Source of the DNA: Oceanibaculum pacificum
GTDB taxonomy: Bacteria; Pseudomonadota; Alphaproteobacteria; Oceanibaculales; Oceanibaculaceae
Assembly (NCBI RefSeq): GCF_001618175.1
Contig: NZ_LPXN01000105.1
Span: 1-64,000, forward strand
Length of the DNA: 64,000 bases
Direction of reading: 5' to 3'
The notes under the pieces were generated by a model, which was given only the letters and a program-made list of their open reading frames with translations, ran no database searches and was not told where the DNA came from. The translations under genes were made by a program, and so were the position numbers. Shown one piece after another: positions 5,177 to 38,370 of the stretch. The number at the start of each line of letters is the position of its first letter. Position 1 is the first letter of the stretch.

Positions 5177-8100
5177 ATGGCGACACAACAGGTCGGCGCG
5201 GGCGAGTGGCAGTTCTGGATCGACCGGGGCGGCACCTTCACCGACATCGTCGCCAGGAAGCCGGATGGCGCGCTGGTCACCCACAAGCTGCTGTCGGAGA
5301 ACCCGGAAGCCTATAAGGACGCCGCCCTTCAGGGCATCCGCGAGCTGCTGGGCCGGACAGCCGAGCAATCGATCCCGGCTGAGCTGGTCGAGGCCGTGAA
5401 GATGGGCACCACCGTGGCCACCAACGCGCTGCTGGAGCGCAAGGGCGAGCGCACGGCGCTGGCGATCACGCGCGGTTTCCGCGACGCGCTGCGCATCGCC
5501 TACCAGAACCGCCCGCATCTGTTCACCCGCAAGATCACTTTGCCGGAGCTGCTCTATGAGCGCGTGGTGGAGGTGAATGAGCGGATGAGCGCCCAGGGCG
5601 AAGTGCTGACGAAGCTTGATCTGGAGGCCGCACGCAAGGATTTACAGGCGGTGTTCGACAGCGGCATCCGCTCGCTCGCCATCGTGCTGCTGCACGGCTA
5701 TCGCTACACCGAGCATGAGGCGGCGCTGGAGAAGGTCGCGAAGGAGATCGGCTTCACGCAGATTTCCGTCAGCCATCAGGTCAGCCCGCTGATGAAGCTG
5801 GTCGGGCGCGGCGACACCACGGTGGTGGACGCGTATCTCTCGCCGATCCTGCGCCGATATGTGGATCGCGTGGCGGGAGAACTGGGCGATACCCGCCTGA
5901 TGTTCATGCAGTCGAATGGCGGGTTGACCGATGCCTTCCTGTTTCAGGGCAAGGACGCCATCCTGTCCGGCCCGGCCGGCGGCGTTGTCGGCTGCGTGAA
6001 GACCGCGCAGATGGCCGGCTTCGACCAGGTGATCGGCTTCGACATGGGCGGCACCTCGACCGATGTGTCGCATTTCAACGGCGAGTATGAGCGCGCCTTC
6101 GAGACCATGGTCGCCGGCGTGCGGATGCGCGCGCCGATGATGCGTATCCATACCGTGGCGGCGGGCGGCGGCTCGATCCTGTTCTTCGACGGATCACGCT
6201 TCCGCGTCGGCCCGGAATCGGCGGGCGCCAATCCGGGCCCGGCCTGCTATCGCCGGGGCGGGCCGCTGACCGTGACCGACGCCAATGTCATGGTCGGCAA
6301 GCTGCATCCGGATTTCTTCCCGCCGGTCTTCGGGCCGAAGCGCGACGAGAAGCTGGACGCCGATGTGGTGCGCCAGAAATTCGCTGCCATGGCCGCCGAA
6401 ATGCAGAAATCCATGGGCGTGACGCGTACGCCGGAGGAAGTGGCCGAAGGCTTCCTGAAGATCGCGGTCGAGAACATGGCCAATGCGATCAAGCAGATTT
6501 CCGTGCAGCGCGGCTATGACGTGACGCGCTATGCGCTGAACTGCTTCGGCGGGGCCGGCGGGCAGCATGCCTGCGCTGTGGCCGACGCGCTGGGCATGAA
6601 GACCATTCTGATTCACCCCTTCGCTGGTGTGCTGTCGGCGTATGGCATGGGGCTGGCCGATCTGCGCGTGCTGAAGGAAAAGGCGGTCGAGGCCAAGCTG
6701 GCCGACGATCTGATCCCCGGCCTCGCCACCCAACTCGACGTGCTGGCCGAGGAAGGCGTCGCCGAGATGCAGGGCCAGGGCGTCGAGGACGACCACATCA
6801 AGGTGCTGCGCAAGGTGCATGTGCGCTATGACGGTTCCGACACTGCGCAGGTGGTTGAATTCGGCAGCCGGCAGGAGATCGGCGAACGCTTCGTCGAGGC
6901 GCATAAGCAGCTCTATGGCTTCTCCATGGAGGGCAAGGGCATGGTGGTGGAGGCGCTGTCGGTCGAGGTGATCGGCGTCACCGATTCCGCCGAGGACCCG
7001 ATCCTCGATGCCGGCAGCGGCGTATTGCCGGCGGCCAAGGGCAATCTGCCGATGTATTGCGGCGCGGAACGCCACGACACCCCGGTCTATGACCGTCTCG
7101 ATCTCGCCCCCGGCTGCAAGGTGGATGGGCCGGCCATTGTCACCGACGCCAATGCCACCACGGTGGTGGAGCCGGGCTGGCAGGCGGAGGTCACGACCCG
7201 CGACCATATGGTGCTGCGCCGGGTGAAGGCACTGCCGACCCGCGTCGCCATCGGCACCCAGGTCGATCCGGTGATGCTGGAAGTGTTCAACAATCTGTTC
7301 ATGTCGATCGCCGAGCAGATGGGCGTGACGCTGCAGAACACCGCCTATTCGGTGAACATCAAGGAACGGCTGGATTTCTCCTGCGCCATCTTCGACGATG
7401 CCGGCAATCTGATCGCCAACGCGCCGCATATGCCGGTGCATCTGGGGTCGATGGGCGAGAGCGTGCGCACGGTGGTCCGCGAGAACCCGGATATCCAGCC
7501 CGGCGACGTCTATGCGCTGAACGCGCCCTATAATGGCGGCACGCACCTGCCGGACGTTACCGTTATCACCCCGGTGTTCGATGAGGCGGGCAAGAAAATC
7601 CTGTTCTATGTCGCCTCGCGTGGCCATCACGCCGATATCGGCGGCACCACGCCGGGCTCGATGCCGCCGGATTCGGTGACCGTCGATCAGGAAGGCGTGA
7701 TGATCGACAATTTCCAGCTGGTCGATCAGGGCAAGTTCCGCGAGAAGGAGCTGGTCGAACTGCTGACCGGCGGGAAATACCCGGTGCGCAACGTGACGCA
7801 GAATGTCGCCGATTTGCAGGCGCAGATCGCCGCCAACGAGAAGGGCGTGGCGGAGCTTCGCAAGATGGTCGGGCATTTCGGCCTCGACGTGGTCATGGCC
7901 TATATGCAGCACGTCCAGGACAATGCGGAGGAGCAGGTGCGCCGCGTCATCGGCGTGCTGAAGGATGGCAGCTTCGCCTACGAGATGGACGATGGCAGCG
8001 TCATCAAGGTGACCGTTTCCATCGACCGCGAGAAGCGGTCGGCGAAGATCGACTTCACCGGCACCAGCGCGCAGCAGAAGACCAACTTCAACGCGCCCTC

Positions 8101-29603: not shown

Positions 29604-30026
29604 ATGAACATTGGCCGAGACACGAAATCCCCCGTCATGCCCCGCAAACCCAGACGCACCAGCCAGGACTTGCTGATCGGTCGTCGCCTGCGCGACCGGC
29701 GGAAATTCCTGAAACAGAGCCTGCAGGAGCTTTCCGCCCAGGTTGGGGTCTCCTACCAGCAGATCCAGAAATATGAGAGCGGGCAGGACCGTATTCCCGC
29801 CAGCATCCTGTTCCTGCTGTCCAAGGCGCTGGACACCTCGCCCAACTATTTCTTCACCCGTACCCTGGAAGACGAAATCCGCGAGCTGTTCCCGGACATC
29901 ACCAAGGAAGCCCTGGCCGAGGCCATGGCCTTCCTCTACTGGTTTCAGCGCATCGAGGACGACACGTTGCAGGACCATATGCGCAAGATGATCATGCATA
30001 TGAGTGGCGACCCGGCCCCGAAATAG
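29604..30026 (+). CDS. XRE-family regulator (PraR/PhrR-like)
   Basis: 140 residues with a single Cro/C1-type helix-turn-helix in the first half: IGRRLRDRRKFLKQSLQELSA, GVSYQQIQKYESGQDRIPAS, then LLSKALDTSPNYFF. The QQIQKYE..RI.AS pattern is that of the alphaproteobacterial PraR/PhrR group. The second half (DEIRELFPDITKEALAEAMAFLYWFQRI) is helical and could mediate oligomerisation. An internal ATG (MPRKPRRT, codon 12) is the alternative start. It lies just downstream of, and facing, the luxI-P450 operon. In Rhizobium, PraR represses quorum-sensing genes, so the position is suggestive. Confidence 0.8.
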   Translation: MNIGRDTKSPVMPRKPRRTSQDLLIGRRLRDRRKFLKQSLQELSAQVGVSYQQIQKYESGQDRIPASILFLLSKALDTSPNYFFTRTLEDEIRELFPDITKEALAEAMAFLYWFQRIEDDTLQDHMRKMIMHMSGDPAPK

Positions 30027-30114: not shown

Positions 30115-31557
30115 CTACCGGCGGCGCGGACGGGCGGCGAAGAAGATGCCGCCCTTGGGGCGCAGCGAGATCATCGGCTCGGTCTCGACTTCCTCGCTGG
30201 TATGCAGGGAAAGGTCGAAGCGCTGCAGCATCTGCGCCACCATGATCTGCGCCTCGAACATCGCGAAGTGATTGGCGATGCATTGGCGCGGTCCGGTGCC
30301 GAACGGGAAGTAGGCGTGTTTCGGCCGGTCGGCCCCAGCTTCCGGGGTGAAGCGGTAAGGGTCGAACTTTTCCGGATCCGGCCAGTATTCCGGATTGCGG
30401 TGCATGACATAGGGGCACAGCATGATGGTAGTACCCTTGGGGATGCGATAGCCGCGCACCTCGTCATCGTTCAGCGCCGCGCGGCTCATGGTCCAGAAGG
30501 GCGGGTAGAGGCGCATCGCCTCCTGCGCCACCATTTTCACGAAGGGCAGGTTCGACAGGTCCTCGTAAGTAGGCTGCCGGCCGCCCAGCACCCGGTCGAC
30601 CTCGTCGCGCGCGGTCGCCATATGCTCGGGATTACGGCACAGCATGTAGAGGCACCAGGCGATCGAGACCGCCGTGGTCTCGTGGCCGGCCAGCACCATG
30701 GTCAGGAAATCGTCGCGCAGCCGCGATAGCGACAAGGGCTCGCCGGTCACCGGGCAGGCGCTGTCCAACAGCATCTGCAGCATGTCCGGCCCGGCCGGGT
30801 CGTGACTGGAGCGGCCCTCCATGCGGTCCTTGATGACCTTGTAGAGCAGTCCGTCGAAATCGGCGATGGCCTGCAACCGCTCGGCGCGGGCGCGGGTCGG
30901 CAAGTCGTGCAACAGCTCGAACAGCGACCAGACGCGCTTCTCGCTCTGCACCATGATGGTGGTGATGATCTCGGTGAAGCGGTCCTTATCCTCGGCCAAG
31001 TCGCAATTCATCAGCGTGCGGGTCGCCACGTTCAATGCGGCGGCCATGACCTTAGGCACGAAATTGACCGGCTGGCCGTCGCGGGTTTCCGCCTCGATGG
31101 CGTCGCAGAGATTGTCGCCGCATTCCGCCATCACCTGGCAGTAATGGTCGAAGCGGTGCCGCCTGAAGGAGGGCTGCGCCAGCGTGCGCTTGGAGCGCCA
31201 GACCTCGTTCTCGGTGACCAGCATGCCGTCGCCGAACATCGCCTTCAGGCGGTAGTAGAAGTCGCTCTTGCGGTAATTGCCGGCATTGGTCTGCATCACA
31301 TGCTGGATGAATTCCGGATGGTTCACCAGATAGAGCGGCTTGCCGGCGATGTCGAAACCGACGATCTCGCCATGCTCGCGCGCCATCCGCACGAAGAAGC
31401 TGGGCGGATGGGGCTTCGAGGCGAACAGCACGCCGACGAAAGGCAGCAGCTTCGCCTTCGGCACGCGCTTGGCCTGGGCAAAGGCCCCGGCGCTGACGGC
31501 AATGCGCCGGGGCTGCTTGCGCGCCGGCGCTCCGGCGAAATCCAGCTCAGCGACCAT
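30115..31557 (-). CDS. Cytochrome P450 in the luxI operon
   Basis: 480 residues with all P450 landmarks: I-helix AGHETTAVSIAWCLYML for oxygen activation, K-helix EAMR (ExxR), and the heme loop FPFGTGPRQCIANHFA with the thiolate cysteine. The start LPFVGVLFASKPHPPSFF and overall style resemble fatty-acid-hydroxylating P450s. No fused reductase and no adjacent ferredoxin gene, so electrons come from partners elsewhere. Its ATG lies 11 bases inside the 76-residue ORF that follows luxI, so luxI, the small ORF and the P450 are one operon. Oxidation of the acyl chain of the quorum signal, or of a quorum-regulated product, is an inference. Confidence 0.9.
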   Translation of the reverse strand: MVAELDFAGAPARKQPRRIAVSAGAFAQAKRVPKAKLLPFVGVLFASKPHPPSFFVRMAREHGEIVGFDIAGKPLYLVNHPEFIQHVMQTNAGNYRKSDFYYRLKAMFGDGMLVTENEVWRSKRTLAQPSFRRHRFDHYCQVMAECGDNLCDAIEAETRDGQPVNFVPKVMAAALNVATRTLMNCDLAEDKDRFTEIITTIMVQSEKRVWSLFELLHDLPTRARAERLQAIADFDGLLYKVIKDRMEGRSSHDPAGPDMLQMLLDSACPVTGEPLSLSRLRDDFLTMVLAGHETTAVSIAWCLYMLCRNPEHMATARDEVDRVLGGRQPTYEDLSNLPFVKMVAQEAMRLYPPFWTMSRAALNDDEVRGYRIPKGTTIMLCPYVMHRNPEYWPDPEKFDPYRFTPEAGADRPKHAYFPFGTGPRQCIANHFAMFEAQIMVAQMLQRFDLSLHTSEEVETEPMISLRPKGGIFFAARPRRR

Positions 31558-31777
31558 CGCCGGTCATCGACAGCGAGTAGGGGGAGATGCTGTCGCTGCG
31601 CTCCTTGGCGTAGACGGCGGCGGCCTTCAGCAGGTCGCGCAGCACGGTCTCCTTGTTGGCGTCCGCTTCCTCGGCGAGGAACAGCAGACAGTTGGTAATG
31701 CCTTCGAGGCTGTTGGCCCCGGTCGCGGCGTCGCGGAAGGCGTTATTGTCGGTCATGCGCATGGTGGTTTCCTTCAT
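31547..31777 (-). CDS. Small protein between luxI and the P450 gene (76 aa)
   Basis: A 76-residue, mostly helical protein (MKETTMRMTDNNAF.., GITNCLLFLAEEADANKETV, LRDLLKAAAVYAKERSDS). I do not recognise the family. It starts 14 bases after the luxI stop and overlaps the P450 start by 11 bases, and each of its two N-terminal ATGs has a usable ribosome site (GAGGAA for the first, AAGGA for MRMTDNN). Small co-transcribed partners of luxI exist elsewhere (CinS in Rhizobium, TslA in Methylorubrum), so an anti-repressor or signal-synthesis role is possible, but no similarity to these is shown. Confidence 0.7.
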   Translation of the reverse strand: MKETTMRMTDNNAFRDAATGANSLEGITNCLLFLAEEADANKETVLRDLLKAAAVYAKERSDSISPYSLSMTGDGR

Positions 31778-31791
31778 GATATTCAGGTTCC

Positions 31792-32451
31792 TCAACCGGC
31801 GATGGCGGGACGTTCGCCCGTCATCATCCGGCCTGGCACAACCGGGCGACGGCGTTCCCAAAGGACCGTCATCCGTTCTGCGGCGTTGCGATTGTGCCAA
31901 TTCACAGTGAGAGAGCCGGCGACGCAGCTCTCGACCCCGATCTGCAGCGCGTCGCCGAAGCGGCGGCATTCGAAGCCGCCGATATGCAGCAACCGCTCGA
32001 ATTGCGTGTCGGTCACGCAGGTCAGCGCGCCGATCTCCAGATCGTCGCAAACCTCGAACAGGGTTTTCAGCAGGTGCGCGGTGATGCGCATCGTCTCGGC
32101 CCGGAACACCCGCCGCTTCATCCGGGGGATGACGGCGAGGCGGCTGATCTCCCACACATCCGGGCCGCGCAGCACCGGGTGCTCGCCCATCAGCGCGGGG
32201 AAATGCGTATCCAGCAGGTGCGGGCGTTCGGTCGGCAGCAGGCGAAAGCAGCCGACCAGGGTGCCGTCCTCCTCCACCGCGGCGACGTGGATCGCCGGGT
32301 CGCAGTCGAACCGGTCGATCTCGCGGCCATGATCGAGCGGCAGGTTCCAGCCCCGAATTTCATTGAAATAGCGGTTGCGGAACCGGAACAGCTCATCCAA
32401 CTGCCATTCGCTGAAGCGATCATGCGCCGGGCTGTGGATCTGGAGTCGCAC
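31792..32451 (-). CDS. luxI: Acyl-homoserine-lactone synthase (LuxI family)
   Basis: A 219-residue autoinducer synthase. The invariant residues of the family are in register: Arg25 and Phe29 (FRFRNRYFNEIRGW, with Trp35), Asp46 and Asp49 (EIDRFDCD), Arg70 (GCFRLLPT), Phe84, Glu101 and Arg104 (VWEISRLAV). It should join S-adenosylmethionine with an acyl donor to give an acyl- (or aryl-) homoserine lactone; the chain cannot be predicted. The luxR gene is directly upstream in the same orientation and a candidate lux box lies 57 bases before the ATG. Downstream genes are a small ORF and a P450. Confidence 0.93.
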   Translation of the reverse strand: MRLQIHSPAHDRFSEWQLDELFRFRNRYFNEIRGWNLPLDHGREIDRFDCDPAIHVAAVEEDGTLVGCFRLLPTERPHLLDTHFPALMGEHPVLRGPDVWEISRLAVIPRMKRRVFRAETMRITAHLLKTLFEVCDDLEIGALTCVTDTQFERLLHIGGFECRRFGDALQIGVESCVAGSLTVNWHNRNAAERMTVLWERRRPVVPGRMMTGERPAIAG

Positions 32452-32508
32452 GTGCCTTTTCCCCCGATAAGGATGGGGAAAGAGTGCCGATCCGGCCTCA
32501 GCCTACCT

Positions 32509-32528
32509 AGCTGCACAATTGTCTAGGT
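32509..32528 (-). promoter_or_regulatory. Candidate lux box upstream of luxI
   Basis: A 20-base imperfect palindrome, AGCTGCACAATTGTCTAGGT, fitting the classical NNCT-N12-AGNN lux-box rule with 14 of 20 positions symmetric and a perfect ACAATTGT core. It sits in the 120-base luxR-luxI gap, 57 bases before the luxI start, the expected place for LuxR activation. CTA-C and GTAG extend the symmetry slightly on both sides. No good sigma-70 -35 box is visible beside it, as is usual for LuxR-dependent promoters. Confidence 0.65.
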
Positions 32529-32571
32529 GTAGATTAAGGGATTGTTTTTATTGAAGGTTGGTTGCGCGACG

Positions 32572-33366
32572 TTAGACCATGCGATGGGTCTTGTTGCCGG
32601 TGATGCCGCCCGGCTCCAGCACCCCCAGATAGACCAGCTTGGCGATGGCGTGGGGGGTGGAAAAAACGTTCAGCTTGTTATGCGCATTATAGATATGGAA
32701 CTTCACCGTATGCATCGACACGGCGAGGATGTCGGCAATCTCGTCCTGGGTCTTGCCGGCGGCGACCCATTTCATCACCTCGATCTCGCGCCCGGTCAGT
32801 TTCAGCTCCTCCTGCACCAGGAATTCGGTGCCCAGCTTGCTGCGCAAGGTGAGGTGAAAATGGTTGGCGACCAGCGTGCAGTCCTGCAGCACGGTGGGGT
32901 CCAGCGACATGAAATCGCCCTCGCTGCCGGCGGAGACGAAGGTGATCAGGCCGTAATCGCCGCCCGCGCCATAGATCGGGATTGACAGCCCCTTATCGAC
33001 CCCGACATCGATGGAATCGCCGAGCAGCCGGCGCTGCGGGTCGCTGACCTCGCGCTTCAGATAGTCGCGGACATTCCAGGCGAAAGGCAGGCGGGTGGCG
33101 TTGCTGTCGGCGATGACCGGGTCGATGCGGGCCAGTTCGTTGGTCTGGTAATGCCGCACCCAGTCGCTGGGGTAATCGCACAGAATCAGCGGGATTTCCG
33201 CGAAGCTGCCGGGCCCCGGATGCTCGTTCGGCAGCAGCTTGGCGCCGACATAGAAGATGCGGCCGAAACCCATCAGATCGGCCATGCCCTGCAATTGGGC
33301 CTTGAATTCGCCGACTGTCTTCAGCGAATGCAGTTCGACAAGCTTCTGAGCAAGCGAGCTGTCCAT
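32572..33366 (-). CDS. luxR: LuxR-family autoinducer-responsive regulator
   Basis: A 264-residue two-domain regulator. Residues about 15-175 are the autoinducer-binding domain, with the signal-contacting residues placed as in TraR/LasR (SDWVRHYQTNELARIDPVI, containing the conserved Trp, Tyr, Asp and Pro; FAWNVRDY). Residues about 190-255 are the LuxR helix-turn-helix (LTGREIEVMKWVAAGKTQDE, VSMHTVKFHIYNAHNKLNV). It should bind the product of the adjacent luxI and act on the box at 32509. A possible -10 (TATAAT on the minus strand at 33465-33470) lies about 100 bases upstream of its ATG. Confidence 0.92.
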   Translation of the reverse strand: MDSSLAQKLVELHSLKTVGEFKAQLQGMADLMGFGRIFYVGAKLLPNEHPGPGSFAEIPLILCDYPSDWVRHYQTNELARIDPVIADSNATRLPFAWNVRDYLKREVSDPQRRLLGDSIDVGVDKGLSIPIYGAGGDYGLITFVSAGSEGDFMSLDPTVLQDCTLVANHFHLTLRSKLGTEFLVQEELKLTGREIEVMKWVAAGKTQDEIADILAVSMHTVKFHIYNAHNKLNVFSTPHAIAKLVYLGVLEPGGITGNKTHRMV

Positions 33367-33558: not shown

Positions 33559-34065
33559 ATGAGCCGTCCGGCCATCTTTCTCGACCGCGACGGCGTGATC
33601 AACGAGGATGTCGGCTATGCATGGCGACAGGCCGACATACGGTGGGTGAGGAACGCGCCCGAAGCCATCGCCTGGTTGAACCGGCGCGGCTATCTGGTGG
33701 TGGTGGTCACCAACCAGTCCGGCATCGCGCGCGGCTATTATAGCGAGCGCGATTTCGACGTGCTGACTGGCTGGATGCATGCCGCCCTGGGGCAATATGG
33801 CGCGCGGATCGACGCGGTCTATCATTGCCCGCACCACCCCACGGCGGGTCAGCCGCCCTACAATGTCGTCTGCAACTGCCGCAAGCCGAAGCCGGGGCTG
33901 CTGGTGAAGGCGATCGGCGATCTCGGCATCGATCCGGCGCGCAGCCTGATGATCGGCGACAAGCTGACCGACATGGAGGCCGCCGCCGCCGCCGGCGTGC
34001 CCGGCCTGCTGTTCCCGGGCGGCGACCTGCTGGAATTCGTGCGCGATGCGCTCGACAATGGATAA
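33559..34065 (+). CDS. gmhB: D-glycero-D-manno-heptose 1,7-bisphosphate 7-phosphatase
   Basis: A 168-residue HAD phosphatase of the histidinol-phosphatase/GmhB group. Motif I is FLDRDGVINED, motif II VVTNQSGIARG, motif III in CRKPKPG and motif IV MIGDKLTDMEAA. The structural zinc site is seen as YHCPHHP..CNCRKP (Cys-x-His ... Cys-x-Cys). It would dephosphorylate heptose bisphosphate for LPS core or related sugar nucleotides. No other heptose genes are nearby. It overlaps the next gene by 8 bases. Confidence 0.9.
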   Translation: MSRPAIFLDRDGVINEDVGYAWRQADIRWVRNAPEAIAWLNRRGYLVVVVTNQSGIARGYYSERDFDVLTGWMHAALGQYGARIDAVYHCPHHPTAGQPPYNVVCNCRKPKPGLLVKAIGDLGIDPARSLMIGDKLTDMEAAAAAGVPGLLFPGGDLLEFVRDALDNG

Positions 34066-34960
34066 GCCCGTCCCGCCGCGCTACCTGCCCTATGGAGAGG
34101 GCGGTTGGCGGCTGTCGATGGGGCTGCTCTCGCTCGACCCGGCGGAGTGGATCGAGGCGGACGCGGATTATCCCGCGCAGCTCGCCTTGAAGGAGGAATT
34201 GCTGGCGACGCGGCACGATGCCGTTTTCCAGGCCCTGCCGGGCACCGAGGCGGCGCAGGCCGAAGTACTGGCGCTGTTGGCCCATCATCTGCCGGCGCGT
34301 TTTCCCGACCGGTTCCGGCGCGCGGGGAATGCGCTGCACAGTCTCGCCGATGACCGCCGGATAGCGCTTGATGATTCCGGCCGCGCGCCGCTCGATATCG
34401 CCGGCCGTCTGGTGCAGGAGGATTTATGCCTGATGCGCGCCGGCCCGGAGGGATACGAGCTGGTCGCCGCCTCGCTCTGCTTTCCGGCGAGCTGGCGGCT
34501 GGCCGACAAGATCGGCCGGCCGATGCTGGCGATCCACGCGCCGGTGCCGGGCTATGCGGAAAAGCTGGGCAAGCCGGTCGACCGGTTCTTCGGCTTTCTG
34601 AAGGCCGACAAGCCGGTCTGGCGCTTCAACTGGTCGCTGCCGGACAATGACCGGCTGTTCAGCCCCACCGGCCATGGCCGTGCCGCGCATGATCCCGAGA
34701 TCACGGCGGAGAATATCGGCCAGCGCGTCTTCATCCGCGTCGAACGCCAGACACTGCGCCGCCTGCCGGCAAGCGGCGACATCCTCTTCACCATCCGCAC
34801 CTATCTCGACCGGCTGGATCGGCTGGAGCCGTTTCCGCCTCTCGCCCGCGCGCTGCTGGGGGCGGTCGGCGACCTCACCCCCGGCATGACGCGCTACAAG
34901 AGCATCCAGCCGTTCCGCGCCGCGCTGGAGGAATATCTGACGCGGGTGGGAGGGGCGTAG
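34058..34960 (+). CDS. DUF3445 protein (heme-dependent oxidative N-demethylase-like)
   Basis: About 300 residues matching the DUF3445 family: YLPYGEGGWRLSMGLLSLDPAEWIE at the start, QEDLCLM, LCFPASWRLADKIGRPMLAIHAPVPGY in the middle (split here only for length: CFPASWRLADKIG), RVERQTLRRLP and FTIRTYLDRL near the end. Characterised relatives are the alpha subunit of the heme-containing dimethylamine mono-oxygenase/N-demethylase. The other subunits are not next to it, so the substrate is open. The start MDKPVPPRYLPY overlaps the end of gmhB by 8 bases; an ATG-like start four codons earlier is possible. Confidence 0.78.
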   Translation: MDKPVPPRYLPYGEGGWRLSMGLLSLDPAEWIEADADYPAQLALKEELLATRHDAVFQALPGTEAAQAEVLALLAHHLPARFPDRFRRAGNALHSLADDRRIALDDSGRAPLDIAGRLVQEDLCLMRAGPEGYELVAASLCFPASWRLADKIGRPMLAIHAPVPGYAEKLGKPVDRFFGFLKADKPVWRFNWSLPDNDRLFSPTGHGRAAHDPEITAENIGQRVFIRVERQTLRRLPASGDILFTIRTYLDRLDRLEPFPPLARALLGAVGDLTPGMTRYKSIQPFRAALEEYLTRVGGA

Positions 34961-34981: not shown

Positions 34982-35704
34982 TCAATACATATGCTGGCCG
35001 CCATTGATGGACAGCGTGGAGCCGGTGATGAAACCGCCCTCGTCGGCGACCAGGAAGACCACGCCGCGGGCGATCTCCGAAGCCTTGCCGAGGCGACCGA
35101 CCGGCACGCGGGCAACGATCTTCTCCAGCACGTTGGCCGGTACGGCGGCGACCATATCGGTGTCGATATAGCCGGGGGCGATGGCGTTCACGGTGATGCC
35201 CTTGCCCGCGCCTTCCTGGGCCAGCGCCTTGGTGAAGCCGTGGATGCCCGACTTGGCGGCGGCATAGTTAACCTGGCCGTACTGACCGGCCTGGCCGTTG
35301 ATCGAGCCGATATTCACGATGCGGCCGAAATTGCGCTCGCGCATGCTGTCGATGACGGCGCGGCACATGTTGAAGCAGGAACCGATATTGGTATCGATCA
35401 CCTCCTTCCACATTTCGTAGCTCATCTTGTGCATGGTGCCGTCGCGGGTGATGCCGGCATTGTTCACCAGCACTTCGACCGGGCCCAGATCGGCGGTCAC
35501 CTTGGCGACGCCCTCCTGGCAGGCCTGGAAGTCGGAGACGTCGAACTTGTAGGCGGGGATGCCGGTTTCCTCGGTGAATTGCTTCGCCCGTTCGTCATTG
35601 CCGCCGTAATTCGCCGCGACCTTGTAGCCGGCATCCTTCAGGGCGATGCAGATCGCCTTGCCGATGCCCCTGGTTCCGCCCGTTACGATTGCCACACGCG
35701 CCAT
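34982..35704 (-). CDS. phaB: Acetoacetyl-CoA reductase
   Basis: A 240-residue SDR enzyme that reduces acetoacetyl-CoA to (R)-3-hydroxybutyryl-CoA with NADPH for polyhydroxyalkanoate synthesis. The cofactor loop TGGTRGIGKAI, NNAGITRDGTMHKM, the catalytic Ser in NIGSINGQAGQYGQ, YAAAKSG with the Tyr-Lys pair, and the C-terminal GGQHMY are all PhaB-like. An excellent ribosome site (AGGGAGGAAAG) precedes the ATG. It follows phaA, but a terminator lies between them, so it probably also has its own promoter. Confidence 0.93.
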   Translation of the reverse strand: MARVAIVTGGTRGIGKAICIALKDAGYKVAANYGGNDERAKQFTEETGIPAYKFDVSDFQACQEGVAKVTADLGPVEVLVNNAGITRDGTMHKMSYEMWKEVIDTNIGSCFNMCRAVIDSMRERNFGRIVNIGSINGQAGQYGQVNYAAAKSGIHGFTKALAQEGAGKGITVNAIAPGYIDTDMVAAVPANVLEKIVARVPVGRLGKASEIARGVVFLVADEGGFITGSTLSINGGQHMY

Positions 35705-35787
35705 GCTTTCCTCCCTGTTTAATGCCGGTTCCGTTTGTCGGAGCCTTGCTTACCCAACGATGATGGCACGCGCTGGGCATGTTGCAA

Positions 35788-35801
35788 TTGACGAGCGTCA
35801 A
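35788..35801. promoter_or_regulatory. Inverted repeat in the phaB upstream region
   Basis: TTGACG-AG-CGTCAA, a perfect 6-base inverted repeat 84 bases upstream of phaB, between its start and the phaA terminator. It could be an operator or double as a -35 element (TTGACG) for phaB; no matching -10 is clear. Weak support. Confidence 0.35.
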
Positions 35802-35811
35802 ATACGCGAAA

Positions 35812-35846
35812 AAAAGCGCCGTCCGGAAAGCCTGGGCGGCGCTTTT
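35812..35846 (-). terminator. Terminator after phaA
   Basis: A 13-base stem with one G-T pair (AAAAGCGCCGTCC / GGGCGGCGCTTTT) and a 9-base loop, 22 bases past the phaA stop. The A run on the plus strand gives a seven-T tail on the transcript strand, so it should end phaA transcription before phaB. Confidence 0.85.
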
Positions 35847-35867
35847 ATCGTTACGAGCGCGGCTCGA

Positions 35868-37040
35868 TCAGCGTTCGACGCACATGGCGATGCCCATGCC
35901 GCCGCCGATGCACAGGGTGGCGAGGCCTTTCTTGGCGTCGCGCTTCTGCATTTCGTGCAGCAGGGTGACCAGCACCCGCGCGCCGGACGCGCCGATGGGA
36001 TGGCCGAGGGCGATGGCCCCGCCATTCACATTCACCTTTGCCGTATCCCAGCCCAGATCCTTGTTCACCGCGCAGGCCTGTGCGGCGAAAGCCTCGTTTG
36101 CCTCGATCAGGTCGAGGTCGCTGGCCTTCCAGCCGGCCTTCTCCAGCGCCGCCCGGCTGGCGGGGATCGGCCCCGAACCCATGATCGCGGGATCGACGCC
36201 GCGCGTCGCCCAGGAGGCGATGCGCGCCAGCGGGGTGATGCCGCGCCTGGCCGCTTCCTCCGCGCTCATGAGCACCAGGGCGGCCGCGCCGTCATTGATC
36301 CCCGACGCATTGCCGGCGGTGACGCTGCCCTCCTTGTCGAAGGCCGGCTTCAGCTTCGCCAGCGTATCGACGGTGGTGCCGTGGCGCGGATATTCGTCGG
36401 CATCGACCACGGTATCGCCCTTGCGGCCGGAAATCGTGACCGGCACGATCTCGTCCTTGAAGCGGCCGGATTTCTGCGCGGCTTCCGCCTTCTGCTGCGA
36501 GGAGGCGGCGAACTCGTCCTGCTGTTCGCGGCTGATCTGCCATTGCTTGGCGACATTCTCGGCGGTGTTGCCCATATGGTAGCCGTTGAAGGCGTCCCAC
36601 AGCCCGTCCTTGATCATGGTGTCGACCATCTTCATGTCGCCCATCTTGGTGCCGTTGCGCAGATGGGCGCAGTGGGCCGACTGGCTCATGCTCTCCTGGC
36701 CGCCGGCGACGACGATGGATGAATCGCCGTTGCGGATCGCCTGGTAGCCCAGCGCCACGGTACGCAGGCCGGAGCCGCAGACCTGGTTGATCAGATAGGC
36801 CGTCGCCTCCTTCGGAATGCCGGCGGCGATGGCGGCCTGGCGGCCCGGATTCTGCCCGGCCCCGGCGGTCAGCACCTGGCCGAAGATCAGCTCGGAGACT
36901 TCGGCTGGATCGACCTTGCCGCGCGACAAGGCCTCGCGGATGGCGATGGTGCCCAGATCATGCGCGGGCAGGCTGCTTAGCGCGCCGTTGAACGCCCCGA
37001 TGGGGGTGCGCGCGGCGCTGGCGATGACGATCTCGGTCAT
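35868..37040 (-). CDS. phaA: Acetyl-CoA acetyltransferase (beta-ketothiolase)
   Basis: A 390-residue thiolase condensing two acetyl-CoA to acetoacetyl-CoA. The acyl-accepting Cys lies in [14 protein letters not shown] (about residue 88), with the GGQESMSQS block, [17 protein letters not shown] with the catalytic His, and the second Cys in [15 protein letters not shown] at the C-terminus. Full length, no defects. GGAGGAG lies just upstream of the ATG. Together with phaB it supplies monomer for polyhydroxybutyrate. Confidence 0.95.
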
Positions 37041-37131
37041 GAAAATGACTCCTCCGAATACGGTGGCGGCTTGGTGCCGTCTGTTCCGCGCCTACAATAG
37101 TTGCAGCGCAGCGGTGAGGCAAACGGCGCGC

Positions 37132-38370
37132 CTAGGATTTGACGGGCAGGCCGTCGATCCAGTCCGCAATGGCGGGCCAGACCAGCTCCCGCGCCCGGCC
37201 GCCGGCCATCATGCCGATATGGCCCAGCGGCGGCTCTATCATATCGGCTTTCGGCAGCGCGGTTGCCAGGGCCCTGGCGCTGGCCGGCGGCACGATGCGG
37301 TCGCCGCCCGGTATCAGCGCCAGCGCCGGCAGGTCGATCCGCCCTGGCGTCACCGGATGGCCGGCCACCCGCCAAACGCCGTTGGCCGGGTCGTTGCGGC
37401 CGTACCAGCCCTCCAGGCAATCATGCGCGACCGGGGCCGCCAGCGGCACGCCGTCATTCAGCCAATCCTCCAGCGCCACGAAGCCGACCGCCTTGTCGCT
37501 GGCCGGGTCGAGCGCGGCAAAGGCGCGGAACTTGCGGAAGGCGAGGTGGATGTCGAGGCCGGAGAACAGCGCCTGCACCGCGTCGGTCGGCAACTCGCCC
37601 AGCCGGTCGGCCAGCGCCAGCAGGCCGGGGGCGATGCCGGGCAGCCATTCCGCGACCGCCGGGCGTTCGGCGGCGAAATCCCACGGGGCGGCCAGCAGCG
37701 CCAGCCCGGCCAGGTCGCGCTGCCGGCGCTCGGCCAGGGCCGCCGCCATGGTGCCGCCCATGCAATAGCCGACCAGCACGGGCGCTTCGCCCACCTCGGC
37801 CAGTACGGCGTCGAGCGCGGCTTCCAGCCGGCCGGCGATATAGGCGGAAATGTCGAATCCCCGCTCCACCGCGCCCGGCGCGCCCCAATCCACCAGATAG
37901 GGGCGATAGCCGCGTCCGGCGAGATCGCGCAGGAAGCTGCGGCCCGGGGCGAGGTCGAGTATATAGCCGCGATTGATCAGCGAAGGCACCGCCAGCACCG
38001 GGCGGCCGCGTTTGCGGCGCCTGTCGGCATAGGCGAGCAGTCGGGTGGTGCCTTCGCTCCAGGCCAGGCGCGGGGGCTTCAGCCCGGCCTCGGCGAAGGC
38101 GGCGCCGCGGTCGTAGGGATGGTGGCGATAGGCGGTCAGCCCGGCGAGGAAGTCGGACCAGCGCCGGGCGACGGCGGCGGCCAGCGCGGCGTCAGTCCTT
38201 GCGGCGTCGCGTCCCGCCAGCGCGGCTTGCAGGGCGCTTGCCCTGTCCCGCAGCGCCGGCCTCCAGGGCAGCGAGCCGCTCCTCAAGGACGGCAATGCGG
38301 TCACGGAGCTCATCAAGGTTGCCGCCGCGACCGTCAGATGCAGGTTCAGTGGGCGCGGGCCCTGTCGCAT
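37132..38370 (-). CDS. PhaC-like polyester synthase / alpha-beta hydrolase
   Basis: 412 residues from the first ATG. The lipase-like box is GYCMGGTMA with the Cys nucleophile of polyhydroxyalkanoate synthases; the acid is in PGGDRIVPP and the His in LGHIGMMAGGRA, and LEGWYGRNDPANG is typical of PhaC. It lacks the long N-terminal domain of class I enzymes and is closer in size to class III catalytic subunits. The start is doubtful: the first 60 codons overlap, in another frame, the end of the PhaE-like gene. ATG at 38370 has GGGAG 7 bases upstream; ATG at 38313 has none. Confidence 0.8.
   Translation of the reverse strand: MRQGPRPLNLHLTVAAATLMSSVTALPSLRSGSLPWRPALRDRASALQAALAGRDAARTDAALAAAVARRWSDFLAGLTAYRHHPYDRGAAFAEAGLKPPRLAWSEGTTRLLAYADRRRKRGRPVLAVPSLINRGYILDLAPGRSFLRDLAGRGYRPYLVDWGAPGAVERGFDISAYIAGRLEAALDAVLAEVGEAPVLVGYCMGGTMAAALAERRQRDLAGLALLAAPWDFAAERPAVAEWLPGIAPGLLALADRLGELPTDAVQALFSGLDIHLAFRKFRAFAALDPASDKAVGFVALEDWLNDGVPLAAPVAHDCLEGWYGRNDPANGVWRVAGHPVTPGRIDLPALALIPGGDRIVPPASARALATALPKADMIEPPLGHIGMMAGGRARELVWPAIADWIDGLPVKS

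Follow-up and report, generated by a model that had tools for sequence, protein, structure and literature searches.

Why should a gene for an acyl-homoserine lactone (AHL) synthase be followed immediately by a gene for a cytochrome P450? AHL signals are usually regarded as finished once released by LuxI, and to our knowledge no enzyme is yet known for making an oxygenated version of an AHL signal. The question is raised by a locus in a stretch of 64,000 nucleotides from Oceanibaculum pacificum (contig NZ_LPXN01000105.1, positions 1 to 64,000; hereafter the window), for which a preliminary description had proposed a quorum operon of luxR, luxI, a small open reading frame (ORF) and a P450 gene. 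Our analysis indicates that the locus is probably a LuxR/LuxI quorum operon with its own signal-tailoring P450 and with a small protein acting on a neighbouring regulator of the XRE family. The gene arrangement is solid and recurrent; the chemistry (substrate, reaction and order of steps), the cotranscription and the pairing of the small protein with the XRE regulator are what we infer. The locus is composed of the following features:

32572..33366, minus strand: luxR-type receptor of 264 amino acids (aa), with Pfam matches Autoind_bind (E 1.5e-24) and GerE (E 8.2e-17), kept in 4/4 genomes of the genus
32507..32526, no strand assigned: lux-box-like palindrome CTAGACAATTGTGCAGCTAG, 55 bp before the luxI start, of predicted function
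31792..32451, minus strand: luxI-type AHL synthase of 219 aa, Pfam Autoind_synth (PF00765), E 2.5e-25
31547..31777, minus strand: small helical protein of 76 aa from a luxI-companion family, with a probable start at 31762 giving 71 aa
30115..31557, minus strand: cytochrome P450 of 480 aa, Pfam p450 (PF00067), E 1e-98
29604..30026, plus strand: XRE-family (PraR/HipB-like) regulator, Pfam HTH_3 (E 1.2e-10), convergent to the P450 gene

On the minus strand luxR, the palindrome, luxI, the small ORF and the P450 gene follow one another in tandem, and the coordinates and reading frames given for the four genes in the preliminary description proved correct when rechecked. The spacing of 14 bp between luxI and the small ORF also stood, although the protein is probably 71 and not 76 residues long; the 11-bp overlap between the small-ORF stop and the P450 start was confirmed and is the same in all four genomes of the genus. 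Apparently, luxI, the small ORF and the P450 gene form, as had been supposed, a single expression unit served by the lux-box-like site and are presumably cotranscribed. What the preliminary description lacked was the convergent XRE (PraR-like) gene as a part of the conserved block, and the membership of the small protein in a luxI-associated family resembling CinS and MmaP in position.

Conservation within the genus was analyzed in four genomes, namely the window genome and those designated G001, G002 and G003. The block luxR-luxI-small ORF-P450-XRE is intact in all of them and occupies at least two genomic contexts, its flanks in G002 being the same as in the window and those in G001 and G003 consisting of different genes. 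The XRE gene adjoins the P450 gene as its convergent neighbour in all four genomes (79-86% identity), so that the conserved unit comprises five genes. Identity to the window proteins across the genus is 80-89% for the P450, 56-66% for LuxI and 62-77% for LuxR. As a separate observation, the window P450 is nearer to its counterparts in G001 and G003 (87-89%) than to that in G002 (80%; comparison with loci L018, L019 and L020), whereas luxR, luxI, the XRE gene and metK of the window are nearest to G002; recombination or faster change in G002 is a possible cause of this discordance.

The association of luxI with a P450 gene recurs beyond the genus. Among 385 genomes of Alphaproteobacteria, luxI was detected in 58 genomes at 75 places, and a search of the flanks for P450s placed one beside luxI at 11 of the 75 loci, distributed over eight families (the four genus members, G046, G308, G207, G186, G150, G220 and G272). 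The linked P450 is always on the same strand as luxI, either directly adjacent, or separated by the small ORF alone, or fused to it (G150), and at no luxI locus of the class was a P450 found at any non-adjacent place within the fetched flanks. Adjacent cases expected by a rough calculation (P450 counts of the genomes, one gene per kb) number about 0.17, against the 11 observed; the genomes G002, G046, G207, G220 and G308 each have no P450 match besides the linked one. A plasmid search with LuxI additionally revealed annotated luxI and P450 genes that overlap on the conjugative plasmid p1S06B of Bradyrhizobium japonicum; the plasmid search with the window P450 yielded distant P450s only (up to 37% identity), and the search of genome contigs with the P450 alignment gave a single locus, in a marine metagenome-assembled genome. 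The order luxI-small ORF-P450 itself was found again in other families, as a check suggested in the preliminary description had asked.

One could suppose that this is a chance or selfish co-location, mobile luxI cassettes having picked up a P450 gene without any functional link, and the different genomic contexts of the block within the genus and the one linked case on a plasmid would suit such an origin. It does not account, however, for linkage in eight families where some 0.17 cases are expected, for the invariable adjacency and common strand, for the fusion, for the lack, within the fetched flanks, of luxI loci with a more distant P450, or for linkage having been gained or lost at least three times on the P450 tree. 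Conservation in the genus together with recurrence elsewhere excludes a chance arrangement, and we consider this explanation, already disfavoured, to be very improbable.

The most telling of the recurrent cases is the fusion. In G150 the PF00765 match falls in an open frame of 699 residues, and the fusion protein of 686 aa (L074, 7884-5824) consists of a p450 domain at residues 30-457 (E 2.5e-84) and an Autoind_synth domain at residues 481-628 (E 5.4e-18). A divergent luxR lies beside the fusion gene, the same fusion occurs in G752, a second species of the same genus, and an XRE gene adjoins the fusion gene in both. That the two are joined in a P450 lineage of its own is the strongest indication we have that both enzymes act on one molecule. 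Among the three options left by the preliminary description (a P450 that tailors the autoinducer, one that inactivates it, or a separate quorum-controlled product), the fusion favours tailoring, the chemistry itself being predicted.

The phylogenetic tree was built for 37 P450s, the unlinked background being drawn from the closest relatives of the window enzyme; for this reason the distant linked groups, two of them with long branches, are not placed with good resolution. The luxI-linked enzymes group on the tree, a positive outcome for another check named in the preliminary description: the linkage label changes 3 times, against a mean of 11.1 in shuffled labels, none of 500 shuffles giving as few. 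The clade of the window P450 (support 99/95) comprises the four genus enzymes and those of G308, G186, G207 and G098, every member being luxI-linked or consistent with linkage. Only the G098 enzyme appeared unlinked in the search; in this genome luxI and the small ORF end one contig, and the matching small-ORF tail and the P450 gene begin another, so the operon was probably split by assembly. The P450s of the fusions and those of G046, G220, G272 and Bradyrhizobium branch outside the window clade.

The window P450 possesses the complete set of motifs of a monooxygenase of the PF00067 family: AGHETT with the acid-alcohol pair of helix I at residues 290-295, ExxR at 346-349 and the haem-binding loop with Cys426. 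For its AlphaFold model (mean predicted local distance difference test score, pLDDT, 84.7) the nearest structure is CYP184A1 (7wzl/7wzm), followed by plant CYP97 and CYP102A1 (P450 BM3); one CYP184A1 structure entry contains oleate (oleic acid), and BM3 mutants with N-decanoyl-homoserine lactone (9iss, 9isu) are among the structure matches. The view that this is an enzyme of the fatty-acid type is thus borne out by the fatty-acid-binding P450s nearest to it, and both fold and sequence agree with a CYP184/CYP102-like enzyme; at about 34% identity to CYP184A1 and about 25% to BM3 it does not belong to the CYP184 or CYP102 families proper.

Such an enzyme could also act on some other fatty-acid-like metabolite, its gene being simply a catabolic or biosynthetic one that quorum sensing controls through the luxI operon. 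Target genes beside luxI are common, fatty-acid P450s are versatile, the P450 is more conserved than LuxI, and in G186 the ORF after the P450 gene resembles, by eye, an acyl-CoA synthetase. The core shared by the linked loci consists, however, of luxR, luxI and the P450 gene (with the small ORF in the main clade), no further enzyme gene common to them having been seen, and a fusion with LuxI is not predicted by a separate product; we regard this possibility as unlikely. Downstream of the P450 gene in G220, with a 4-bp overlap, lies a gene for a ribbon-helix-helix domain protein (RHH_4; L082, 7904-8326).

A different role in the same pathway would be that of a built-in off switch, the P450 oxidising the AHL to a weaker ligand and thereby limiting or shaping the quorum response. 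CYP102A1 hydroxylates AHLs of C12-C20 at positions omega-1 to omega-3 (review PMC3355433), and this oxidation lowers the AHL activity in a reporter (PMC3355433, PMC12501872); expression together with luxI would yield delayed negative feedback, and a fusion would suit immediate modification just as well. On the other hand, a fusion that modified each molecule upon synthesis would leave the synthase without purpose if the product no longer acted as a signal, and oxidation is a poor off switch, since the assay reported for oxidised AHLs found them still partly active (PMC3355433, PMC12501872). Self-quenching seems to us, on these grounds, quite unlikely, and the tailoring of the AHL by the P450, suggested by the linkage and the fusion, is preferred.

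Several observations nevertheless weigh against the tailoring operon. The P450 is far more conserved than LuxI and LuxR, hence its substrate need not track the acyl preference of LuxI. The operon contains no gene for a redox partner, and no convincing palindrome was found upstream of the G046 genes and the fusion genes. In the class, 64 of the 75 luxI loci have no P450 within the fetched flanks, and none of the 80 further luxI loci of a phylum-wide sample has one within 4 kb; with most luxI loci devoid of it, the association is scattered, not universal. Finally, as regards the small protein, the product encoded downstream of luxI on a Rhizobium leguminosarum plasmid scores 2.0 bits on the small-protein profile, which is not convincing.

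The window LuxR carries the Autoind_bind and GerE domains that define AHL receptors, and LuxI, in addition to the Autoind_synth domain, has the conserved Arg/Phe/Trp/Asp/Arg/Glu core of the synthases, with residues R25, F29, W35, D46, D49, R70, F84, E101, S103 and R104 present and invariant in the genus alignment. Its nearest solved structure is LasI, and the position aligned to Thr142 of LasI is occupied by Cys, which is not decisive for the AHL structure. In each of the four genus genomes the palindrome CTAGACAATTGTCCAGCTAG occupies the same position upstream of luxI, with one base changed in the window copy. The window genome contains two more luxI genes. One, at locus L036 (G000:C24:8487-20978; near 5959-6531, minus strand), precedes a small ORF (5738-5944) that belongs to the small-protein family; the ORFs alongside resemble, by eye, ParA and a recombinase of the resolvase/invertase type, for which reason it possibly lies on a mobile element. 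The other, at locus L028 (G000:C116; near 6001-6516), has one early in-frame TAG in a conserved region, so that the gene is broken or the sequence is in error.

The small protein encoded between luxI and the P450 probably starts at Met6, as suggested by the genus alignment and the AAGGAA ribosome site, which gives it 71 aa; AAGGAAACCACC-ATG is its probable conserved start site, and the copies in G001 and G003 begin at that ATG. It matched no Pfam or NCBIfam family and had no relative among viral contigs, and its genus alignment, searched against the 385 genomes of the class, found the genus alone and two weak matches. Direct reading of the luxI-P450 gaps revealed the small ORF in G308, G207, G186 and G098 as well; as these homologues surfaced only in this way, the first profile was too narrow. 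The homologues align over a C-L-x-x-L-x-x-x-A core, and when profiles were built from one half of the family the other half scored above noise for several members, not for all. With the widened profile, 21 same-strand places directly downstream of luxI were found versus 2 elsewhere; most of the 21 had gone into building it, but weak hits of the first round were already placed in this way. Throughout the P450 clade of the window the small ORF sits between luxI and the P450 gene, and the family also occurs directly after luxI at many loci without a P450, which marks the protein as a companion of luxI and not a P450 accessory; it is possibly a general luxI companion in Alphaproteobacteria. Small helical-looking proteins, apparently of a single family, were seen directly after luxI at loci without a P450, namely L033, L037, L044, L047, L048, L050, L051, L053, L054 and L069. 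A small protein, of about 86 aa, is encoded in G046 as well (L016, 13516-13776, minus strand), there after the P450 gene instead of before it, and the small-protein profile does not match it.

In its position directly after luxI, with which it is presumably cotranscribed, the small ORF resembles the genes of CinS and MmaP. CinS of Rhizobium leguminosarum is reported to be cotranscribed with cinI and to bind and inactivate PraR (PMC4149787), and MmaP of Methylobacterium fujisawaense, a protein of 59 aa, to be cotranscribed with mmaI and to bind PraR (PMC10790750). Alternatively, the small protein could have LuxI or the P450 as its partner instead of a PraR-type regulator, for instance as an adaptor or stabiliser, which would be compatible with tailoring by the P450. 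Its place between the two genes in the window clade and its AlphaFold model, a low-confidence chain of three helices (pLDDT 63.6), would accommodate such a role, and the profile score of 2.0 bits lends no support to homology with CinS and MmaP; the family, however, follows luxI even where no P450 is present and so is not specific to the P450, and the CinS and MmaP precedents are matched here by an adjacent XRE gene. We hold the partner role to be possible, if doubtful.

The product of this XRE gene has the helix-turn-helix domain of the XRE/HipB type characteristic of PraR regulators. In M. fujisawaense the PraR orthologue was identified by the S-adenosylmethionine (SAM) synthetase gene following praR (PMC10790750). 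The operon-linked XRE gene has no such neighbour; the metK-linked gene of PraR type lies elsewhere in the window genome (G000:C137), and the two are paralogues, about 39% identical over the helix-turn-helix region.

In the neighbourhood of the quorum operon the window also encodes an HODM_asu protein (haem-dependent oxidative N-demethylase alpha-like; 34046-34960, E 7e-77) and genes of the polyhydroxybutyrate type (reductase, thiolase and PhaC-like hydrolase; 34982-38370). The latter lie near the operon in G002 too and were not seen beside the block in G001 and G003.

Considering these data, the operon might work as follows. At quorum, signal-bound LuxR would activate the lux-box promoter, and therefore luxI, the small ORF and the P450 would be produced together. 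LuxI would make an acyl-homoserine lactone, and the P450 would hydroxylate its acyl chain, or the acyl chain on the acyl carrier protein before transfer, the oxygenated AHL being then the signal read by LuxR, or one of a pair of signals. In parallel the small protein, in the manner of CinS and MmaP, would bind and neutralise the neighbouring XRE (PraR-like) regulator, and therefore the quorum state would also relieve the control exerted by the latter. More broadly, and with somewhat less assurance, we lean towards the existence of a distinct class of alphaproteobacterial quorum systems. In these, oxygenated AHLs made by a P450 that is encoded next to LuxI, or joined to it in one protein, would be the true signals; the P450s would stem from several lineages, with a CinS-like protein in the main lineage and a dedicated PraR-like regulator in the genus of the window.

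The recurring luxI-P450 pairs and the natural fusions point to an extra enzymatic step, one that would give rise to signals of new structure and to receptors of new specificity. Oxygenated signals of this kind could escape detection with the usual AHL standards and biosensors, and the P450-LuxI fusion protein makes the tailoring idea directly testable in a laboratory strain. Since the small-protein family follows luxI in many Alphaproteobacteria, relays of the CinS/PraR type may be commoner than described.

The preliminary description knew of no luxI-P450 operon of this form, and in the open-access literature we likewise found no paper on such an operon or on a P450-LuxI fusion; several known systems, however, resemble it in part. 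The closest are cinR-cinI-cinS/PraR and mmaR-mmaI-mmaP/PraR, in which, as in the window locus, the AHL synthase gene precedes one for a small protein (cotranscribed, as is presumed for the window), the small protein has a regulator of PraR type as its target (by prediction in the window) and the operon is under AHL control (likewise by prediction in the window); the accessible parts of the reports mention no P450 (PMC4149787, PMC10790750), and in both systems praR lies elsewhere, next to the SAM synthetase gene, whereas the window operon is linked to an XRE paralogue distinct from the metK-linked gene. CYP102A1 has a fold of the fatty-acid type and hydroxylates long-chain AHLs in vitro (PMC3355433), but it is of Gram-positive origin, carries its own reductase, has no described linkage to an AHL synthase and is distant in sequence. 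In Streptomyces avermitilis the autoregulator avenolide requires a P450 hydroxylase (PMC5744401), so the tailoring of a bacterial signal by a P450 has a precedent in another system; there (aco, cyp17, avaR1) the autoregulator-making P450 is cotranscribed with the receptor gene (PMC5744401), yet the hormone is a butenolide, the receptor belongs to the TetR family and an acyl-CoA oxidase stands in place of LuxI, which leaves an analogy only. The luxR-luxR-luxI-phyH arrangement of sphingomonads (topology T) likewise keeps an oxygenase-type gene beside luxI, but PhyH is a phytanoyl dioxygenase, reportedly in convergent orientation, and the accessible text describes no role for it in AHL chemistry (PMC4288048). 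Finally, strain MOLA 401 of the Rhodobacteraceae produces long-chain AHLs bearing two or three hydroxyl groups. A P450 was suggested to account for them, yet it was noted only as present in the genome, not genetically linked, with no operon and no enzyme shown (PMC5479921); the luxI-linked P450s described here represent a candidate type of enzyme for such polyhydroxylated AHLs.

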